From: Solobacterium sp.
GTDB lineage: Bacteria > Bacillota_I > Bacilli_A > Erysipelotrichales > Erysipelotrichaceae
DNA: 45,361 nt
Reading direction: 5' to 3'
NCBI GenBank assembly: GCA_024698805.1
Contig: JAILQT010000111.1
Coordinates: 1 to 45,361, forward strand
Shown here: in pieces, positions 1 through 6,323 of the stretch
How positions within the stretch are numbered: the stretch's first letter is position 1
Layout: each line of letters begins with the position of its first letter
Notes under the pieces: generated by a model
What the model was told of the DNA's origin: nothing
Database searches by the model: none
What the model saw: only the letters and a program-made list of their open reading frames with translations
Translations under genes and position numbers: made by a program

Positions 1-1346
1 GCAGCGCATGCCTGGATGCCTGTGAGATGCTTCAGAAATACAGGAAAGATCCGATCCGCATCACAACGGAGATCTATCAGGATGCAGTGGCTGTAGCCGG
101 GGCTTCGATGCGCACCATCGGCAGGCAGGTGTCATCCTGCAGCCTGTGCGGGCTGTGCCGGAGGGTATGTCCGGAAAGTGCGGATGTCGGCGCGGCGATG
201 CTCTACTCCCGCCGGGACCGTGTCAGGATGGGGATCTACCCTCCTGCATTCCATGACCACTGGCTTCGTGAAATGACATTCGCGCTTGGGGACGCTTCCC
301 TTATCTTGACGCCGGCGGACAGCACCGTATGTGAATATGTATTCTTCCCGGGCTGCCAGCTGGGGGCTTCCGACCCGCGGTATGTGGAAAAAGCCTATGC
401 TTCCCTGATCGGGGAGTGCGGATTATCGTGCGGGCTTCTGCTTGAATGCTGCGGCATACCGGCAAGATGGGCAGGCATGGAAGACCTGGAGATCGCTGTC
501 GCCGACAGGCTCAGGGAACAGCTTCATTCCCTCGGCGATCCGGCAGTGATATGTGCCTGTACTTCCTGTGAACGCTCTCTCAGGGAAAAACTCCCGGGAG
601 TAAAGATCGTTTCCCTGTACAGTATCCTGGCTGAACTGCCGTCAGCGGGAAGCCCGCTGACGGAAGACGCGGCTGTGTTTGATCCGTGCGCTTCTTCCGA
701 AGACGCCAAAGCCGGGGAAGGGGTCCGCACGCTTATGAAGAAAGCGGGCATCCGTGCCCATGAGCTCTCATGGCATGGGGAGCGTGCACGCTGCTGCGGT
801 TTCGGAGGCCATATCCAGGCAGCCAATCCCGCACTGTTTGAGGAGATCGCGGAGAACCGCGCGTTCGAGAGTGATCTGCCGTACGTGACTTACTGCGCCA
901 ACTGCAGGGAGACATTCGCTGCCAGGGGCAAACAGGCAATGCATATACTCGATGCGGTCTACGGCCTGGACAACGGGCTGCGCGGCGCCGTATCGATCAG
1001 CCGGCGGAGGCAGAACATGCTCCGGCTGAAAAAAGACCTGATGGAGAAATATATGAATCGTACGTTTGAGATCCCCGGGGAGCCCTGGGAGGATATGGAA
1101 CTGGACATCCCTGAAGAACTGCAGAAGAAAATGGAACGTGTCCTGATCTCTGCGGACACGGTACGCCGCGCTGTATATATGGCAGAAAACGGCGGGGTCC
1201 GTTTTGAAAAGCAGGGCGTGTATATCGCCAGCGCCAGGGAAGGAGTCGTCACCGTCTGGGTACACTATAAAAATGACGGGGGAAAATATACGGTATGCAG
1301 GATCTATTCCCACCGCATGGAGATCACAGGAGGGCAAAATGGCTGA
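1..1346 (+). CDS. CCG-domain (HdrB/HdrD-like) Fe-S protein, 5' partial
   Basis: Probable electron-transfer subunit of the heterodisulfide-reductase-related Fe-S family. The reading frame is open to the left window edge: codons before the first ATG (27) encode SACLDACE, which looks like the end of a ferredoxin-type cysteine cluster, so the true start lies outside the window. Counting from the ATG at 27, a second 4Fe-4S motif (CSLCGLCRRVCP) lies near residues 38-49. Two CCG-type cysteine clusters follow: CQLG...ECCG plus CTSCE around residues 110-185, and DPCA...RCCGFGG plus YCANC around 220-295. About 110 C-terminal residues after these are unassigned. The family uses such clusters for thiol/disulfide or electron-bifurcating chemistry. 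It overlaps the next gene by 8 nt, so it belongs to the same operon. The partner redox protein and substrate are not visible. Confidence 0.85.
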   Translation, partial: SACLDACEMLQKYRKDPIRITTEIYQDAVAVAGASMRTIGRQVSSCSLCGLCRRVCPESADVGAAMLYSRRDRVRMGIYPPAFHDHWLREMTFALGDASLILTPADSTVCEYVFFPGCQLGASDPRYVEKAYASLIGECGLSCGLLLECCGIPARWAGMEDLEIAVADRLREQLHSLGDPAVICACTSCERSLREKLPGVKIVSLYSILAELPSAGSPLTEDAAVFDPCASSEDAKAGEGVRTLMKKAGIRAHELSWHGERARCCGFGGHIQAANPALFEEIAENRAFESDLPYVTYCANCRETFAARGKQAMHILDAVYGLDNGLRGAVSISRRRQNMLRLKKDLMEKYMNRTFEIPGEPWEDMELDIPEELQKKMERVLISADTVRRAVYMAENGGVRFEKQGVYIASAREGVVTVWVHYKNDGGKYTVCRIYSHRMEITGGQNG

Positions 1347-1542
1347 ATCCGCTGTATTTGAAGAGATCATCTGTTCCGGCTGCGGGGTAAAAATGAAACT
1401 CGCCCGTGCGGATTTTACATATCTCGGCCACAACTTTCACACAGAAGTGATGCGCTGTCCGAAATGCGGCGCTGTATACATTCCCCAGGAACTCGCCGAG
1501 GGAAAGATCGCCGATGCGGAGACTGCCCTGGAGGATAAATAA
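1339..1542 (+). CDS. small four-cysteine redox/zinc-ribbon protein (DVU_1557-like)
   Basis: A 67-residue protein with two CxxC pairs, CSGCGVKMKLA near the N-terminus and MRCPKCGAVYIP in the middle, followed by an acidic tail. The start at 1339 is preceded by AGGAGGG and overlaps the end of the Fe-S gene. The pattern matches the small protein that, from memory, is called the DVU_1557 family redox protein and sits beside the same radical SAM, ligase and methyltransferase genes in other anaerobes. The cysteines could hold zinc or iron (rubredoxin-like) or act as thiols. The sequence alone does not decide which. A role as carrier or partner for the neighbouring enzymes is inferred from position only. 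Confidence 0.7.
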   Translation: MAESAVFEEIICSGCGVKMKLARADFTYLGHNFHTEVMRCPKCGAVYIPQELAEGKIADAETALEDK

Positions 1543-1560
1543 CGCAAGGAGAACAGCCGT

Positions 1561-2619
1561 ATGAGGAAATTCGGCATAATCAGCGGTTTCCTGGGGGCAG
1601 GGAAGACCACTGCGATGATCGCACTGAAAAAGTATTACGCGCAAAAGGGGCTCCGCTGTGACCTGATCGTCAATGACCTGGGTGACTGCGATATGGTAGA
1701 TGCTGCATACAGTGAAACGTGCGGCGTTTCCGTGCATTCCATGCCCGGCGGCTGCATCTGTCACAGGACACGTGAACTGAAAGACGTGCTGGACGGCTGT
1801 TTCGCTGCCGGTACAGACCTGGTGCTCAGCGATATCCCCGGCTGCGGGATCGGGGGCCTGGACGGTGTTTACCGCAGATTTTCCCGGAACGATACAGAAC
1901 TGGCCCCGTATACGGTGATCGTGTCACCGCAGGATATGGCCCTGCTTTATGATGATGAAACATTTAACCGCATCCACCTGCCCCGTGATATGGCAGAGAT
2001 CCTGAAGGCCCATCTGGAGGAGGCAGATATTGCCGTACTCAACAAGACCGATACCATTGCCCCCGGGGAAACTGAAAAACTGATCGATATGATCCGCAGC
2101 TTCCGCCCTGATATCCCCGTATTCCCGGTCAGCGCGAAATACGGCACAGGGATAAGCACGCTGGCAGACCATATCCTTTCCGCAGTCGCATGCATGGACC
2201 AGCCGGAAGGGCTTGCGGATAAAGAGGAGATCATCGCTCCGCTTGAGAGGCTCTCCTGGTATGACTGCCGGTATTATGTAAAGGTATGCTGTGACGATTT
2301 CAGTCCCGATGATTATCTGCGTGACCTGATGGAGACCGCAAGGTTCTCCTTTGCGGCCATGAACGCCAATATCCCGCATCTGAAGGTCTTCGCTTCCGGG
2401 CAGGGGGGAGATCATGCGAAATACTCCCTTACGGGTATCGATTATCCGCTGCAGAAAGACTGCCTGTTCGCAAAACGTGCGGCTGAGCTGGCTGTGGTGA
2501 TCAACGCCCGCCTTCTCTGTCCTCCTGTCCTGGCAGCACAGATCATGAAGGCCTGTATCGACGGTGCGGGGAAAAAACACGATCTGGATACCATGATATT
2601 CTCTTCCTCATGTCAGTAA
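1561..2619 (+). CDS. G3E-type (CobW/HypB-like) P-loop GTPase
   Basis: A 352-residue nucleotide-binding protein. Walker A is SGFLGAGKTT at residues 8-17, and the guanine-specificity motif NKTD is at 161-164. A metal-binding-like GGCICH segment at 63-68 takes the place of the GxCC motif of the CobW family. G3E GTPases insert metals or maturate metalloenzymes (HypB, UreG, MeaB, CobW). The likely job here is chaperoning a metal or cofactor into an enzyme of this cassette. The C-terminal third resembles no known domain. It lies 18 nt after the small redox protein, with an AAGGAG site, and 13 nt before the radical SAM gene. The exact subfamily is uncertain. Confidence 0.8.
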   Translation: MRKFGIISGFLGAGKTTAMIALKKYYAQKGLRCDLIVNDLGDCDMVDAAYSETCGVSVHSMPGGCICHRTRELKDVLDGCFAAGTDLVLSDIPGCGIGGLDGVYRRFSRNDTELAPYTVIVSPQDMALLYDDETFNRIHLPRDMAEILKAHLEEADIAVLNKTDTIAPGETEKLIDMIRSFRPDIPVFPVSAKYGTGISTLADHILSAVACMDQPEGLADKEEIIAPLERLSWYDCRYYVKVCCDDFSPDDYLRDLMETARFSFAAMNANIPHLKVFASGQGGDHAKYSLTGIDYPLQKDCLFAKRAAELAVVINARLLCPPVLAAQIMKACIDGAGKKHDLDTMIFSSSCQ

Positions 2620-2632
2620 GGAGGGTGATCCC

Positions 2633-4006
2633 TTGATCATCAGAAATACAAGATCGGTATGTCCTGAATGTTTAGCCAGCATTCCCGCCTGTCTGGACCG
2701 GCAGCCGGACGGGAGTGTTTTCATGGTGAAGACATGCCCGCATCACGGGACATACAGGTCTGTTGTCTGGCGGGGACAGGTGCCGTTTTCAGACTGGACG
2801 GCAGGTGTTCCCCCAATGAATGAAGCGGAAGGGCTGCACTGTCCTGAAAACTGCGGTCTTTGCCCGGAACATATACAGGGAAGCTGCTGCGTCGTGCTCG
2901 AAGTGACGAAACGCTGCAACCTGCACTGCCGTTTTTGTTTCGCTGATGCCGGGGAAGATACAGAGCCGTCATATGATTCCCTCCTGGAAGCAGTCCGGCA
3001 GATCGCAGACAGGGGATCCCGCCCGATGCTTCAGCTGTCCGGGGGCGAACCTACCCTGCGAAGGGACCTGCCTGAGCTGGTCCGCGCAGCGAAGGATTCA
3101 GGCATCCCTTATGTCCAGGTAAATACCAACGGAATCCGTCTGGCAGAAGATACCGGCCTGGCACAGCGTTTAGCAGAAGCAGGGCTGGATTTCGTTTTCC
3201 TCCAGTTTGACGGTATGGATGACCGGGTCTACCGTACGCTGCGCGCAAAAGACCTGCTGAAGATCAAGAAACAGGCTGTCGCTAACTGCGGGGCAGCGGG
3301 TCTTGCGGTAACACTGGTGCCTGCGGTAGCGCCGGATATCAACCTCAGCTCGCTTGGGGATATCGTGAAATTCGCTGCAGACTGCTCACCGGTGGTCCGG
3401 GGCGTTCATTTCCAGCCTGTCTCCTATTTCGGAAGGATACCGGGCGGGATCCCGGCTGACGAAGGACGGTGTACCCTGGATGAACTGCTCACAGCACTGT
3501 GCGATCAGACCGGGCTTAAGGTCAGCGATTTCGCACCGTCACGGTGCGACCATCCGCTGTGCGGTTTTCACGGATCCTTTATCGCTGAGCAGGGCAGGCT
3601 GATACCCCTGACACACGGCAGTACAGTCCCGCGCAGGATGATCACAGCGGAAGAAAACAGGGACTTCACAGCCCGCCGCTGGCTCCGCAGCAGAAAAAAC
3701 GGTCCGGTTTCCGGAAATGCGGACGCGGATATCCTTCAGGAAAAAACTGTCCTTCCGGTGAGCGGGCAGAAGCATAAACTGAGGCTCGATATGAAAGACA
3801 GCAGTGTTGCGGATATGGATGTCTTTTTACAGAAGGTACGTTCGCAGTCTTTTACGCTGTCATCCATGCCTTTCCAGGACGCCATGAACCTGGATGCCGA
3901 AAGGCTGCGCAGATGCAGCCTGCATGTCTTCCGCGGCGGGGATCTCATCCCCCTGTGTGCGGAATATCTGACTCCCGCGGGTCAGGGCAGGTCACAGGAG
4001 GAATAA
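2633..4006 (+). CDS. radical SAM protein, TrsS / MJ0619-like, TTG start
   Basis: A 457-residue radical SAM enzyme. The 4Fe-4S/SAM motif CNLHCRFC has cysteines at 95, 99 and 102, and SGGEPTLR follows as the glycine-rich SAM-binding motif. The N-terminus has CPEC (10-13) and a second cluster TCPHHG, then CPENCGLC. That arrangement is typical of the MJ0619/tetraether-synthase-like branch and of the family I recall as TrsS. The start is TTG at 2633, behind a perfect AAGGAGGGTGAT site. No ATG fits both the spacing and the N-terminal cysteine motif. The C-terminal 150 residues are poor in recognisable motifs. The reaction is unknown. Co-occurrence with a CoA ligase and a methyltransferase suggests modification of an acyl or small-molecule substrate. 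Confidence 0.85.
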   Translation: MIIRNTRSVCPECLASIPACLDRQPDGSVFMVKTCPHHGTYRSVVWRGQVPFSDWTAGVPPMNEAEGLHCPENCGLCPEHIQGSCCVVLEVTKRCNLHCRFCFADAGEDTEPSYDSLLEAVRQIADRGSRPMLQLSGGEPTLRRDLPELVRAAKDSGIPYVQVNTNGIRLAEDTGLAQRLAEAGLDFVFLQFDGMDDRVYRTLRAKDLLKIKKQAVANCGAAGLAVTLVPAVAPDINLSSLGDIVKFAADCSPVVRGVHFQPVSYFGRIPGGIPADEGRCTLDELLTALCDQTGLKVSDFAPSRCDHPLCGFHGSFIAEQGRLIPLTHGSTVPRRMITAEENRDFTARRWLRSRKNGPVSGNADADILQEKTVLPVSGQKHKLRLDMKDSSVADMDVFLQKVRSQSFTLSSMPFQDAMNLDAERLRRCSLHVFRGGDLIPLCAEYLTPAGQGRSQEE

Positions 4007-4008
4007 CG

Positions 4009-5277
4009 ATGAGAACACCTACAGATGCGTGGATCGCTTCAAGGCTGGGTATTTCCGAAGAGGAGCTCTCTGCGGAAGTGCTTCGTGCCTATCAGATAAG
4101 GCGGTTTCAGGAGACCGTTCGCTATGCGGCGGGACACAGCCGTTTTTACGCCGGTATGTTTGCGGGGACCGATCCGGATTCCATATGTACGGCTGAGGAT
4201 ATTAAAAAACTTGGCGTGACTTCGGAAAACGACCTGGCAGGCCGGGAAAACCTGTTCCTGTGCATTCCCCCGGGCAGCGTGGACCGGATCTTTACGGTTC
4301 CGACTACGGGTACCAACGGGAATCAGAAACGGATCTTTTTTACCGCAGGCGACCTGGCGCCTTCTGTGGAATTTTACTATCATGCATTCCTTACCTTCAT
4401 CCGGCCCGAAGACAGGCTGCTGGTGATGATGGGAGGTACCGCGGAAGGAAGTGTCGGGGATACGATCGACCGTTCCCTTTCCCCGATCGGTGTGACCACC
4501 AGGGTGTTTGGGCAGGTGACGGACCTGGAAACGGCATGGAACGCTGTTATGGAATTCCGTCCGGATGTCATTGTCGGGATACCGTATCAGATCGGCGCTC
4601 TCGCTGCGTGGTCGCGTTCCCATGGACTGCCCCATGGTGTGAGATGTGTGCTTCTGAGTGCCGATGATGTTCCGAATGCCGTACGGCAGAGGATATCCGG
4701 GATCTGGGGTGCGGAAGTGTATTCCCATTACGGCCTTACGGAGACCGGGCTTGCCGGCGGTGTGGACTGCTGCGCGCACAGGGGATATCATCTGCGTTCC
4801 TGCGATATGTATGCCGAGATACTTGATCCGGACGCTGACGGGTTCGGGGAACTGGCTGTCACTCCTTTCGGGCGCAGGGCTATGCCGCTGATCCGCTACC
4901 GCACAGGCGATATTGCCAGGATCAGTACGGAAAGATGTCCCTGCGGCGGGGTGCTTCCCCGGCTGGAAACGATCCGCGGCAGGCTTTCCAACAGCTGTAT
5001 GATCTCTGGACAGCGTGTATTTCTGTCCCAGATCGAAGAGGAAGTATTCCGTGATGACGCTGCAGTTGATCTGGAATGCACCGTCACAGGGAATGAACTG
5101 GTCCTCCTGGTCCGCACACTCCCGCAGGAAGAAACGGATCAGGAGGCATTGAAAGAGCGGCTTATGCGCGCCGTCCTTCCGGCAGGTACAAAGGTCCGCA
5201 TCAGTGAGGAGACTGTCTGCGGCTTCCTGCCCCGGCGCAGCCCGAAAAAACGTATGGTCGTAAACGAAGAGGTCTGA
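4009..5277 (+). CDS. PaaK-like AMP-dependent CoA ligase (DVU_1553-like)
   Basis: A 422-residue adenylate-forming enzyme of the phenylacetate-CoA ligase branch. The phosphate-binding loop TTGTNG is at residues 99-104. YSHYGLTETG is the adenine/acyl-binding motif, RYRTGD binds ribose and marks the hinge, and a C-terminal domain carries lysine-rich catalytic candidates. It would activate a carboxylic acid to an acyl-AMP and then a thioester. The ATG at 4009 was chosen because CACAGGAGGAATAACG directly precedes it. An in-frame ATG at 3913 lies inside the radical SAM gene and lacks a ribosome site. It starts 2 nt after the radical SAM stop and ends 1 nt before the methyltransferase, so it is translationally coupled. 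The substrate is unknown and phenylacetate is not implied. Confidence 0.85.
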   Translation: MRTPTDAWIASRLGISEEELSAEVLRAYQIRRFQETVRYAAGHSRFYAGMFAGTDPDSICTAEDIKKLGVTSENDLAGRENLFLCIPPGSVDRIFTVPTTGTNGNQKRIFFTAGDLAPSVEFYYHAFLTFIRPEDRLLVMMGGTAEGSVGDTIDRSLSPIGVTTRVFGQVTDLETAWNAVMEFRPDVIVGIPYQIGALAAWSRSHGLPHGVRCVLLSADDVPNAVRQRISGIWGAEVYSHYGLTETGLAGGVDCCAHRGYHLRSCDMYAEILDPDADGFGELAVTPFGRRAMPLIRYRTGDIARISTERCPCGGVLPRLETIRGRLSNSCMISGQRVFLSQIEEEVFRDDAAVDLECTVTGNELVLLVRTLPQEETDQEALKERLMRAVLPAGTKVRISEETVCGFLPRRSPKKRMVVNEEV

Positions 5278-5278
5278 G

Positions 5279-5935
5279 ATGGGATATCCGGATGGTTATA
5301 AACCCCTTCGTCCGGGAGGGCTGTCTTTGAGCAGGCGGCTCCTGTCACTGGGAGGGGAATTAAAAGATCGCCGGGTGCTGGATCTCGGCTGCGGCAGGGG
5401 GGAAACAGCCCGGCTGCTCAGGGATGAATACGATGCTGCGGTGACCGGCGTTGATCTTTCGGAAGAGTTCATAAATGAATGCCGCGGGAAATGGCCGGAT
5501 ATGACATTTATATGCGCGGATGCACAGGATCTTCCTTTCCGCGGCGGTTCTTTTGACATCATTGTGTCGGAGTGCTGTTTTTCCGTTTTTGCGGATCCGG
5601 AAAAGGCATTCCGTGAGGCGGAACGTGTGCTCTCTGACGGCGGGATACTGCTGCTGAGTGATCTGTGGACGGAAGGCCGTGACTCTTCCGGCAGCGGGAT
5701 GGTGCGGTGCCTCTATTCCCGGCAGCGGTGGCTGGATATGGTGACCGGTGCCGGATTCACCGTGACCGGCTTTCATGATGTTCGCAGCGTCCTGACCGGG
5801 ATGTATGTACAGATGATCCTTGATCTGGGCAGGGAAGGAGCACAGAAACAGATGGGTCTGTGCATGACTCATGAAGAAATGAAAGCCCTGTCTTATATGA
5901 TGCTGTCTGCTGTAAAGAACAGGGGGACGCTGTAA
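5279..5935 (+). CDS. class I SAM-dependent methyltransferase (DVU_1556/TrsM-like)
   Basis: A 218-residue Rossmann methyltransferase. Motif I is VLDLGCGRG at residues 33-41. The acidic ribose-binding residue is in VTGVDLSEEF and the adenine-binding segment is ICADAQDLPF. Post-motif strands contain the ILLLSDLW segment typical of UbiE-like enzymes. The N-terminal GYKPLRPGG segment is a feature I recall in the DVU_1556 family. It is the last gene of the cassette: one base separates it from the ligase, and a terminator overlaps its final codons. The target is probably the ligase or radical SAM product, which is inference from the operon. Confidence 0.82.
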   Translation: MGYPDGYKPLRPGGLSLSRRLLSLGGELKDRRVLDLGCGRGETARLLRDEYDAAVTGVDLSEEFINECRGKWPDMTFICADAQDLPFRGGSFDIIVSECCFSVFADPEKAFREAERVLSDGGILLLSDLWTEGRDSSGSGMVRCLYSRQRWLDMVTGAGFTVTGFHDVRSVLTGMYVQMILDLGREGAQKQMGLCMTHEEMKALSYMMLSAVKNRGTL

Positions 5936-5953
5936 CAGGGCGCCCCCTTTTTA
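5921..5953 (+). terminator. rho-independent terminator after the Fe-S/radical SAM cassette
   Basis: GGGGGACGC, a short loop containing the TAA stop codon, then GCGCCCCC followed by TTTTT. The stem has one bulged A. It overlaps the end of the methyltransferase gene. Confidence 0.7.
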
Positions 5954-6323
5954 CTCTGCGTGCTGTGTCTGTATCGTACCCGAAGTCATATATAGATGCT
6001 GTCATTCCGAAAACGCCGGCATCTTTGAAGGACCGATACAGGCAGTAATTGTCCCTGCCGTGTCTCAGTTTGTTTTCTTCCGCATTACCTCGTTTCCCTT
6101 CTGTATATCTTTTCATTCGTGATCCTGCATATGGTATTTCCGCCAGCTGCGAACAGAAGATCCAGGACAGTGCGGTCTCTGCGGAAGAACAGCCTGTATT
6201 CTTCCGGTATCTGATACCGCAGGAAGTGCAGAGCCGCCAATGACATTTCCGGTTGAAGATCATGAAGTTACCTTATTCTATGGAAAAATCTACTATAATG
6301 AAAAATGATCAAAGGAGCTTCAT
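5954..6323. other. about 370 bp between genes, mostly unexplained
   Basis: No gene is convincing here. The last 30 bases hold a promoter -10 for the downstream gene. The minus strand is open from 6263 back to 5757 but gives a low-complexity, unrecognisable product that runs into the methyltransferase gene. A 64-codon plus-strand frame at 6049-6243 has no ribosome site. The region may be decayed coding sequence. Confidence 0.4.
6294..6299 (+). promoter_or_regulatory. -10 box upstream of the DUF4241-like gene
   Basis: Perfect TATAAT, 24 bases before the ATG and followed by AAAGGAG. No good -35 lies at 17 bp, so the promoter may be extended or weak. Confidence 0.5.

Follow-up and report, generated by a model that had tools for sequence, protein, structure and literature searches.

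The first genes of contig C138, from a Solobacterium sp. metagenome-assembled genome (MAG), raise the question of what a flavoprotein fragment, a small CxxC protein, a G3E-type GTPase, a TrsS-type radical S-adenosylmethionine (SAM) enzyme, an adenylate-forming ligase and a methyltransferase might accomplish together. The window analyzed here is this entire contig, 45,361 nucleotides (nt) in length, and the MAG to which it belongs consists of 2.8 Mb in 146 contigs, ~91% complete with 5.7% contamination. With a probability of about one half, we read the window as the downstream part of an operon shared by TrsS and a MOP-type molybdenum aldehyde oxidoreductase (AOR), in a variant carrying a G3E GTPase, and as a dedicated module that matures and services that AOR. 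What is shown directly is the gene set and how well it is conserved, the metal sites retained in TrsS, and the nearly obligate presence of TrsS in genomes with AOR; the product of the operon is something we infer.

The six genes are tightly spaced, as the initial annotation had described, and lie on a single strand, with gaps of 1-18 nt and one 8-nt overlap (in order, -8, +18, +13, +2 and +1 nt), and the run, read directly from the window, extends from the contig edge to position 5935, with a terminator after the last gene. The features are as follows, with alignments of TrsS, the G3E GTPase and the CxxC protein referred to as A1, A2 and A3, respectively.

3-1346, plus strand: C-terminal part of a pyridine-nucleotide-disulfide oxidoreductase (PNDR)/dicluster/CCG protein (NF045663, 454 bits, profile positions 313-758 of 759; PF02754)
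1339-1542, plus strand: DVU_1557-family small protein with two CxxC pairs (NF045645, 80 bits; PF24292; A3)
1528-1539, plus strand: LEDK C-terminus of the CxxC protein, near-invariant among homologues
1561-2619, plus strand: G3E-type GTPase (PF02492, 66 bits; invariant columns in A2; distribution across genomes)
2633-4006, plus strand: TrsS-type radical SAM enzyme, TTG start (NF045646, 482 bits; PDB 7TOL by profile and fold; A1)
3572-3679, plus strand: TrsS variable loop, residues 314-349, cysteine-free here, at the place where common AOR-linked TrsS carry CC, CCC or CxC
3866-3868, plus strand: codon for Met412 of TrsS, which pairs in alignment with Met439, the labile cluster ligand of tetraether synthase, and is invariant in A1
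4009-5277, plus strand: DVU_1553-family adenylate-forming (PaaK-like) ligase (NF045666, 353 bits; YGxTE, TGD and C-terminal KK/KR motifs)
5279-5935, plus strand: DVU_1556-family SAM methyltransferase (NF045667, 171 bits)
5912-5954, plus strand: intrinsic terminator over the last stop codon (-20.8 kcal/mol, z -3.9, T run)

Five of the six genes are matched by NCBIfam models tied to the DVU_155x neighborhood of D. vulgaris, specific matches that bear out the likeness previously proposed, and the sixth is the G3E GTPase. The CxxC protein, methyltransferase and ligase score above their cut-offs of 60, 155 and 300 bits. The earlier family calls hold, supported by these models and by PF02492 for the GTPase (cobW domain; cut-off 20.7 bits), with one exception: the gene described as a "CCG Fe-S protein" does not encode a separate Fe-S protein. 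It encodes the C-terminal portion of PNDR, a larger flavoprotein fusion that begins off the contig. The fragment stays under the cut-off of 530 bits with its 5' end missing, and a complete homologue at locus L042 reaches 707 bits with the same model; one CxxCxxCxxxC and two HdrB-like CCG motifs, located by regular expression, are all intact. TrsS falls 8 bits short of its cut-off (482 against 490 bits, E 1e-144), with 485 bits for its homologue in L042. The window clade is divergent but groups inside TrsS in the tree, and its operon company is as expected for the NF045646 family. TrsS appears in a published selenoprotein list (PMC13188914); there is no in-frame TGA in the window gene, and selenocysteine is not required of all family members.

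A genome scan with the window TrsS found 15 relatives. Closest to it are Solobacterium sp. RGIG5894, at 67%, and Eubacterium sp. UBA3782, at 60%; both are MAGs, and their loci (L042 and L043) contain the identical six genes in identical order. Upstream of the six in both are genes for an AOR, a C-GCAxxG-C-C protein, a CobC-HD fusion and an XdhC-type maturation factor; the AOR directly precedes PNDR, the gene within which the window contig begins, and that of L042 scores 1145 bits with NF045668 (cut-off 1100). PNDR and nucleoside triphosphate (NTP) transferase genes had been predicted to the left of the window, and PNDR is indeed the gene cut by the contig start, while the NTP transferase is found in relatives. 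In more distant loci the common order is AOR, PNDR, CxxC protein, methyltransferase, C-GCAxxG-C-C protein, TrsS, ligase, XdhC, MocA-HD and CobC, often with a MoeA-like gene preceding AOR; the Clostridium locus L053 shows this order in full, from the MoeA-like gene to CobC, with a PNDR-dicluster fusion and an AOR of 1305 bits. This arrangement is consistent with the NCBIfam family names, from which an order running from DVU_1559 to DVU_1551 follows; DVU_1559 is the aldehyde oxidoreductase (PMC10920352). Across 48 TrsS neighborhoods of 12 kb or more, a methyltransferase was present in 45, a ligase in 42, PNDR and the CxxC protein in 40 each, AOR in 33, XdhC in 23 and MocA in 21. The set recurs in many unrelated genomes and is therefore far beyond chance. 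In addition, TrsS distances track those of PNDR, the CxxC protein, the methyltransferase, the ligase and AOR, with Mantel r from 0.55 (AOR) to 0.79 (ligase), above all 2000 permutations. As a separate observation, in L042 (1672-2760) and L043 (1334-2539) the CobC-type phosphatase is fused to the DVU_1551-family HD domain, which elsewhere follows a MocA-like domain.

How closely AOR and TrsS accompany one another was examined in 391 Clostridia-class genomes (the class of Oscillibacter valericigenes) and in 297 genomes from the phylum of a Syntrophobacterales locus, with TrsS bit thresholds set from the gap in the score lists and genome counts uncorrected for relatedness. In the former, TrsS exceeds 480 bits in 15 genomes and AOR is above cut-off in the identical 15, with four weaker TrsS matches (about 300-323 bits) accompanied by no AOR. 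In the latter, TrsS reaches at least 416 bits in 34 genomes and AOR is present in 26, with both in 25, and the AORs of the sole AOR-only genome are cut at contig ends. Among the genomes behind the named TrsS loci, all 13 have an AOR match, 12 of them above cut-off. A genome with AOR therefore almost always has TrsS, and one with TrsS mostly has AOR; from this co-occurrence we take the six genes to be an AOR module and not an isolated cassette. A hunch that xanthine-type hydroxylases might be involved proved right, as the partner is a molybdopterin aldehyde oxidoreductase. Some genomes carry two AOR genes, together with two or more TrsS (G577, G623, G645 and G762) or with one (G556, G794 and G812).

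TrsS aligns over its full length with the tetraether synthase Tes/GDGT-MAS (MJ0619, PDB 7TOL), both by profile (E 1.9e-117) and by fold (E 1.6e-33, template modeling score 0.73). Tes has four metal motifs and a labile cluster ligand, Met439 (PMC9433317). All of these motifs, the rubredoxin-like, N-auxiliary, radical SAM and C-terminal cluster sites, are found in TrsS (CX2C..CX2H, CX3CX2C plus H, CX3CX2C and Cys310/428/442), and the labile methionine corresponds to Met412. Unlike Tes, TrsS has no lipid genes nearby, keeps the company of AOR and is associated with either a CC motif or a G3E gene, and with the tetraether lipid synthase model NF045702 the window protein scores 288 bits, under the cut-off of 450. 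By analogy, we infer that the chemistry of TrsS is Tes-like, with a carbon of the substrate bound to the C-terminal cluster en route to a C-C or C-S bond. Two loci (L116 6885-10859 and L117 2646-6601) show a tandem TrsS-TrsS-ligase arrangement in which the second TrsS lacks the N-terminal auxiliary cluster motif.

The G3E GTPase has a Walker A motif, NKTD, CxC (residues 65-67) and CC (243-244), all invariant columns in A2, and has no specific NCBIfam equivalog; it is predicted from the conserved CxC and CC to bind and deliver metal. Its fold model was weak (predicted local distance difference test score 60), and fold matches were not used. Counted by the initial annotation as a member of the conserved set, the GTPase is instead the marker of an operon variant and not part of the common operon. 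The distinction extends to TrsS itself, in the variable, flexible loop between Cys310 and Trp350. Almost every AOR-linked TrsS has CC, CCC or CxC in this loop, and the motif is missing from the six TrsS with an adjacent G3E gene (the window, L042, L043, L045, L048 and L077), from AOR-less genomes, one of which (L138) has a wider-spaced CSRC, and from the tandem TrsS of L116 and L117. These labels were taken from the alignment, with the crude fallback labels for L155 and L158-L160 set aside. On the TrsS tree the G3E state changes twice, on the window branch and at L077, where the sister locus L113 has CC but lacks a G3E gene. A survey of 76 genomes gave G3E matches above 400 bits for the six whose TrsS is G3E-adjacent and CC-less, and for these six alone; G507 combines a weaker match (291 bits) with CC, and 12 Clostridia-class genomes without TrsS gave no G3E match at the E 1e-30 limit. 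Where the cysteine-rich CC arm of TrsS is absent, this metal-chaperone-like GTPase is usually the neighbor of TrsS, and it appears to stand in for the arm. A family-wide link of G3E to TrsS was also considered and is ruled out, as the GTPase is confined to two branches.

If the operon is a maturation and partner module for AOR, PNDR, with its flavoprotein part, Fe-S site and two CCG sites, would serve as the flavin/electron partner that AOR lacks, and/or as the disulfide reductant of the module. AOR from D. gigas is without the flavin adenine dinucleotide (FAD) domain of its family and has been paired with flavodoxin in vitro (PMC10223205). PNDR, the neighbor of AOR in many of the operons, suggests itself as the flavin partner. 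The ligase would adenylate a carboxylate, the CxxC protein would present the intermediate at its LEDK end, TrsS, with an intermediate bound to its cluster, would form a C-C or C-S bond as tetraether synthase does, and the methyltransferase would complete the product. In the window branch, GTP-gated delivery of a metal (or cofactor) by the G3E GTPase would replace the role played elsewhere by the CC arm. AOR would require the product, which may act in AOR assembly and not stay in the enzyme. The most specific version of this scheme, a new AOR cofactor or activation pathway in which an acid is activated by the ligase, held at the LEDK of a CxxC carrier, linked by radical chemistry of the Tes type, then methylated and given a metal via the CC arm or G3E to yield a product that AOR needs, strikes us as rather unlikely in all its parts. 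The initial annotation's claim that the ligase implies a coenzyme A (CoA)-activated acid is too strong; the adenylation motifs are present and intact, and the protein is predicted to be an adenylate-forming enzyme that need not form a CoA ester. Cys99 is conserved in the DVU_1556 methyltransferases, that of the window among them, and their matches include ArsM models, which possibly points to a soft-atom substrate.

Several observations weigh against an AOR module. The 5' part of the operon, including the AOR gene, is missing from the contig and from the assembly: no AOR gene (NF045668) was found in this ~91% complete MAG. The exchange between G3E and the CC arm is a lead and not a result, because two independent origins are too few for a test; moreover, L172 is an AOR locus whose loop has no CC motif, the one exception to the swap, and in L044 the loop is without the motif, with a CCC shifted to just after it. 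In crystals of D. gigas AOR the cofactor is an ordinary pyranopterin cytidine dinucleotide, and the active site works without a sulfido ligand (PMC3877041); at the level of the enzyme, which is what is compared here, there is thus no sign of a lasting modification. Finally, TrsS, the ligase, the methyltransferase and the CxxC protein also occur in ~8 genomes without AOR above cut-off (for example G1068, G981, G987, G1008 and G931), and the core must therefore have another use too. Most AOR-less loci seen contain a PNDR-like Fe-S protein, the CxxC protein, methyltransferase, TrsS and ligase, and none of the molybdenum cofactor (Moco) genes.

This Moco-free core, which adjoins other anaerobic enzymes, lends some weight to a substrate pathway, in which TrsS, the methyltransferase and the ligase process an organic acid as an adenylate or CoA ester, AOR oxidizes an aldehyde in the same route, PNDR takes up the electrons, and the Moco genes only build AOR. 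The PaaK-like ligase with its complete adenylation motifs is suited to such a route, and proteomics of D. vulgaris places the DVU_1559 AOR under ethanol metabolism (PMC10920352). However, the neighborhoods showed neither a conserved transporter nor any additional catabolic enzyme. The recurrent neighbors are instead MocA, XdhC, CobC and MoeA-like genes, and it would be odd for a broad-range aldehyde enzyme to occur almost never without TrsS. We regard this alternative as possible, but doubtful.

The AOR-less core has other neighbors too. In L155 and L160, judged by eye from sequence, it lies beside genes resembling those for a 2-hydroxyacyl-CoA dehydratase/benzoyl-CoA reductase-type protein and its activator. 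In L156 (6291-8213) and L159 (5778-7745) it is near a 2Fe-2S protein resembling corrinoid-protein reductive activators, and these two loci also have in common a membrane-like protein of 238 amino acids within the operon.

The CxxC protein is distinguished by its C-terminus. Among 55 distinct homologues of DVU_1557, LEDK is the terminal sequence in 43, and seven others finish with IEDK, LEEK, LEGK or VEDK, with no residue beyond the lysine; the remaining five end in AKME, AKMG, GKLQ or, twice, LSYK, and all come from genomes without AOR above cut-off. Since the last residue is fixed, and a weak LysW/ArgW match (E 0.0016, below its cut-off) points the same way, the sequence suggests that the C-terminus is a working part of the protein, as in carrier proteins. 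The near-invariant end might alternatively be the substrate of TrsS acting as a peptide-modifying enzyme, the modified small redox or carrier protein being the product. A radical SAM gene and a methyltransferase gene do adjoin the gene for a small protein, and TrsS and CxxC protein distances are correlated (r 0.70). Yet the best likeness of TrsS is to a lipid-coupling enzyme and not to peptide maturases, the ligase would be left without a role, and AOR-less members keep TrsS without the LEDK end, all of which makes peptide modification quite improbable.

There is also a small chance that the contig is contamination of the MAG, the cluster being real but from another organism. The MAG is not free of contamination, and the ligase family is above cut-off in no other of 392 genomes sampled from the phylum of the window. 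Composition argues otherwise: in tetranucleotide usage the contig lies at a distance of 0.087 from 20 other contigs, whose own range is 0.074-0.22, and the cluster at 0.234, within the spread of 6-kb pieces (95% 0.25). Since the ligase family scores above cut-off nowhere else in the phylum sample, horizontal gain is likely. The same-genus genome G031 (first 800 kb; guanine-cytosine content 0.36) is too distant for synteny comparison.

Direct modification of the AOR molybdopterin by TrsS and the methyltransferase, for which the constant company of MocA, XdhC and MoeA-like genes speaks, is the least credible alternative given the ordinary cofactor in the D. gigas crystals (PMC3877041), the existence of the core without Moco genes and the failure to corroborate the pterin-methylase function earlier ascribed to the relative MJ0619 (PMC9433317). 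An argument for pterin modification from MJ0619 as a pterin methylase was dropped, as MJ0619 is a lipid synthase (PMC9433317).

MOP-type AOR is a textbook example of a molybdenum enzyme, whose crystal structures date back to the 1990s and whose active form is unusual in having no Mo=S ligand. That such an enzyme hardly ever occurs here unless accompanied by a radical SAM enzyme, a ligase and a methyltransferase raises the question of what AOR needs TrsS for, on which the G3E/CC-arm exchange and the LEDK end are concrete handles. The operon AOR belongs to the same family as the D. gigas (1VLB) and D. desulfuricans (1DGJ) enzymes, the window branch being associated with a second AOR subtype of ~1150 bits. 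NCBIfam curators already know of the neighborhood itself, and TrsS has been published as a family of selenoproteins (PMC13188914). To call the system undescribed was an overstatement, as NCBIfam curates the families, one of them under the name "XdhC family aldehyde oxidoreductase maturation factor". New, to the extent that our tools can tell, are the G3E variant and its swap with the CC arm, the LEDK terminus, the core that lacks AOR, and the almost perfect co-occurrence of AOR and TrsS.

Compared with D. vulgaris DVU_1551-1559 (NF045645, NF045646 and NF045663-NF045669), the window shares PNDR/dicluster, CxxC protein, TrsS, ligase and methyltransferase, and its relatives also share AOR, XdhC, NTP transferase and C-GCAxxG-C-C protein. 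In contrast to that neighborhood, the window clade has a G3E gene between the CxxC protein and TrsS, the methyltransferase after the ligase, and a TrsS without the CC arm. A D. vulgaris randomly barcoded transposon sequencing (RB-TnSeq) study was considered as evidence and set aside, as DVU_155x goes unmentioned in the paper and the "Aor" discussed there is DVU1179, an unrelated tungsten enzyme. The selenium-dependent molybdenum hydroxylase cluster (Se_dep_XDH, YgfK, MocA) likewise combines a molybdenum hydroxylase with a GltD-like Fe-S flavoprotein and MocA-like and XdhC-like genes; to our knowledge its hydroxylase is of a different family and it has no TrsS/ligase/methyltransferase core. Biosynthesis of the FeGP cofactor involves a radical SAM enzyme, a methyltransferase, a nucleotidyltransferase and an adenylating enzyme. 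The activities of HcgA-G are comparable to those here (PMC10100467), which is an analogy and no claim of homology.

Lastly, a LarC-like (nickel insertion) gene, judged by eye, adjoins the ligase of the TrsS operon in L162 (6607-7803). Solo TrsS-like proteins without the C-terminal cluster ligands occur at L012 and L013, in the taxonomic family of the window, and the L012 gene adjoins Lgt-like and isoprenylcysteine-methyltransferase-like genes.

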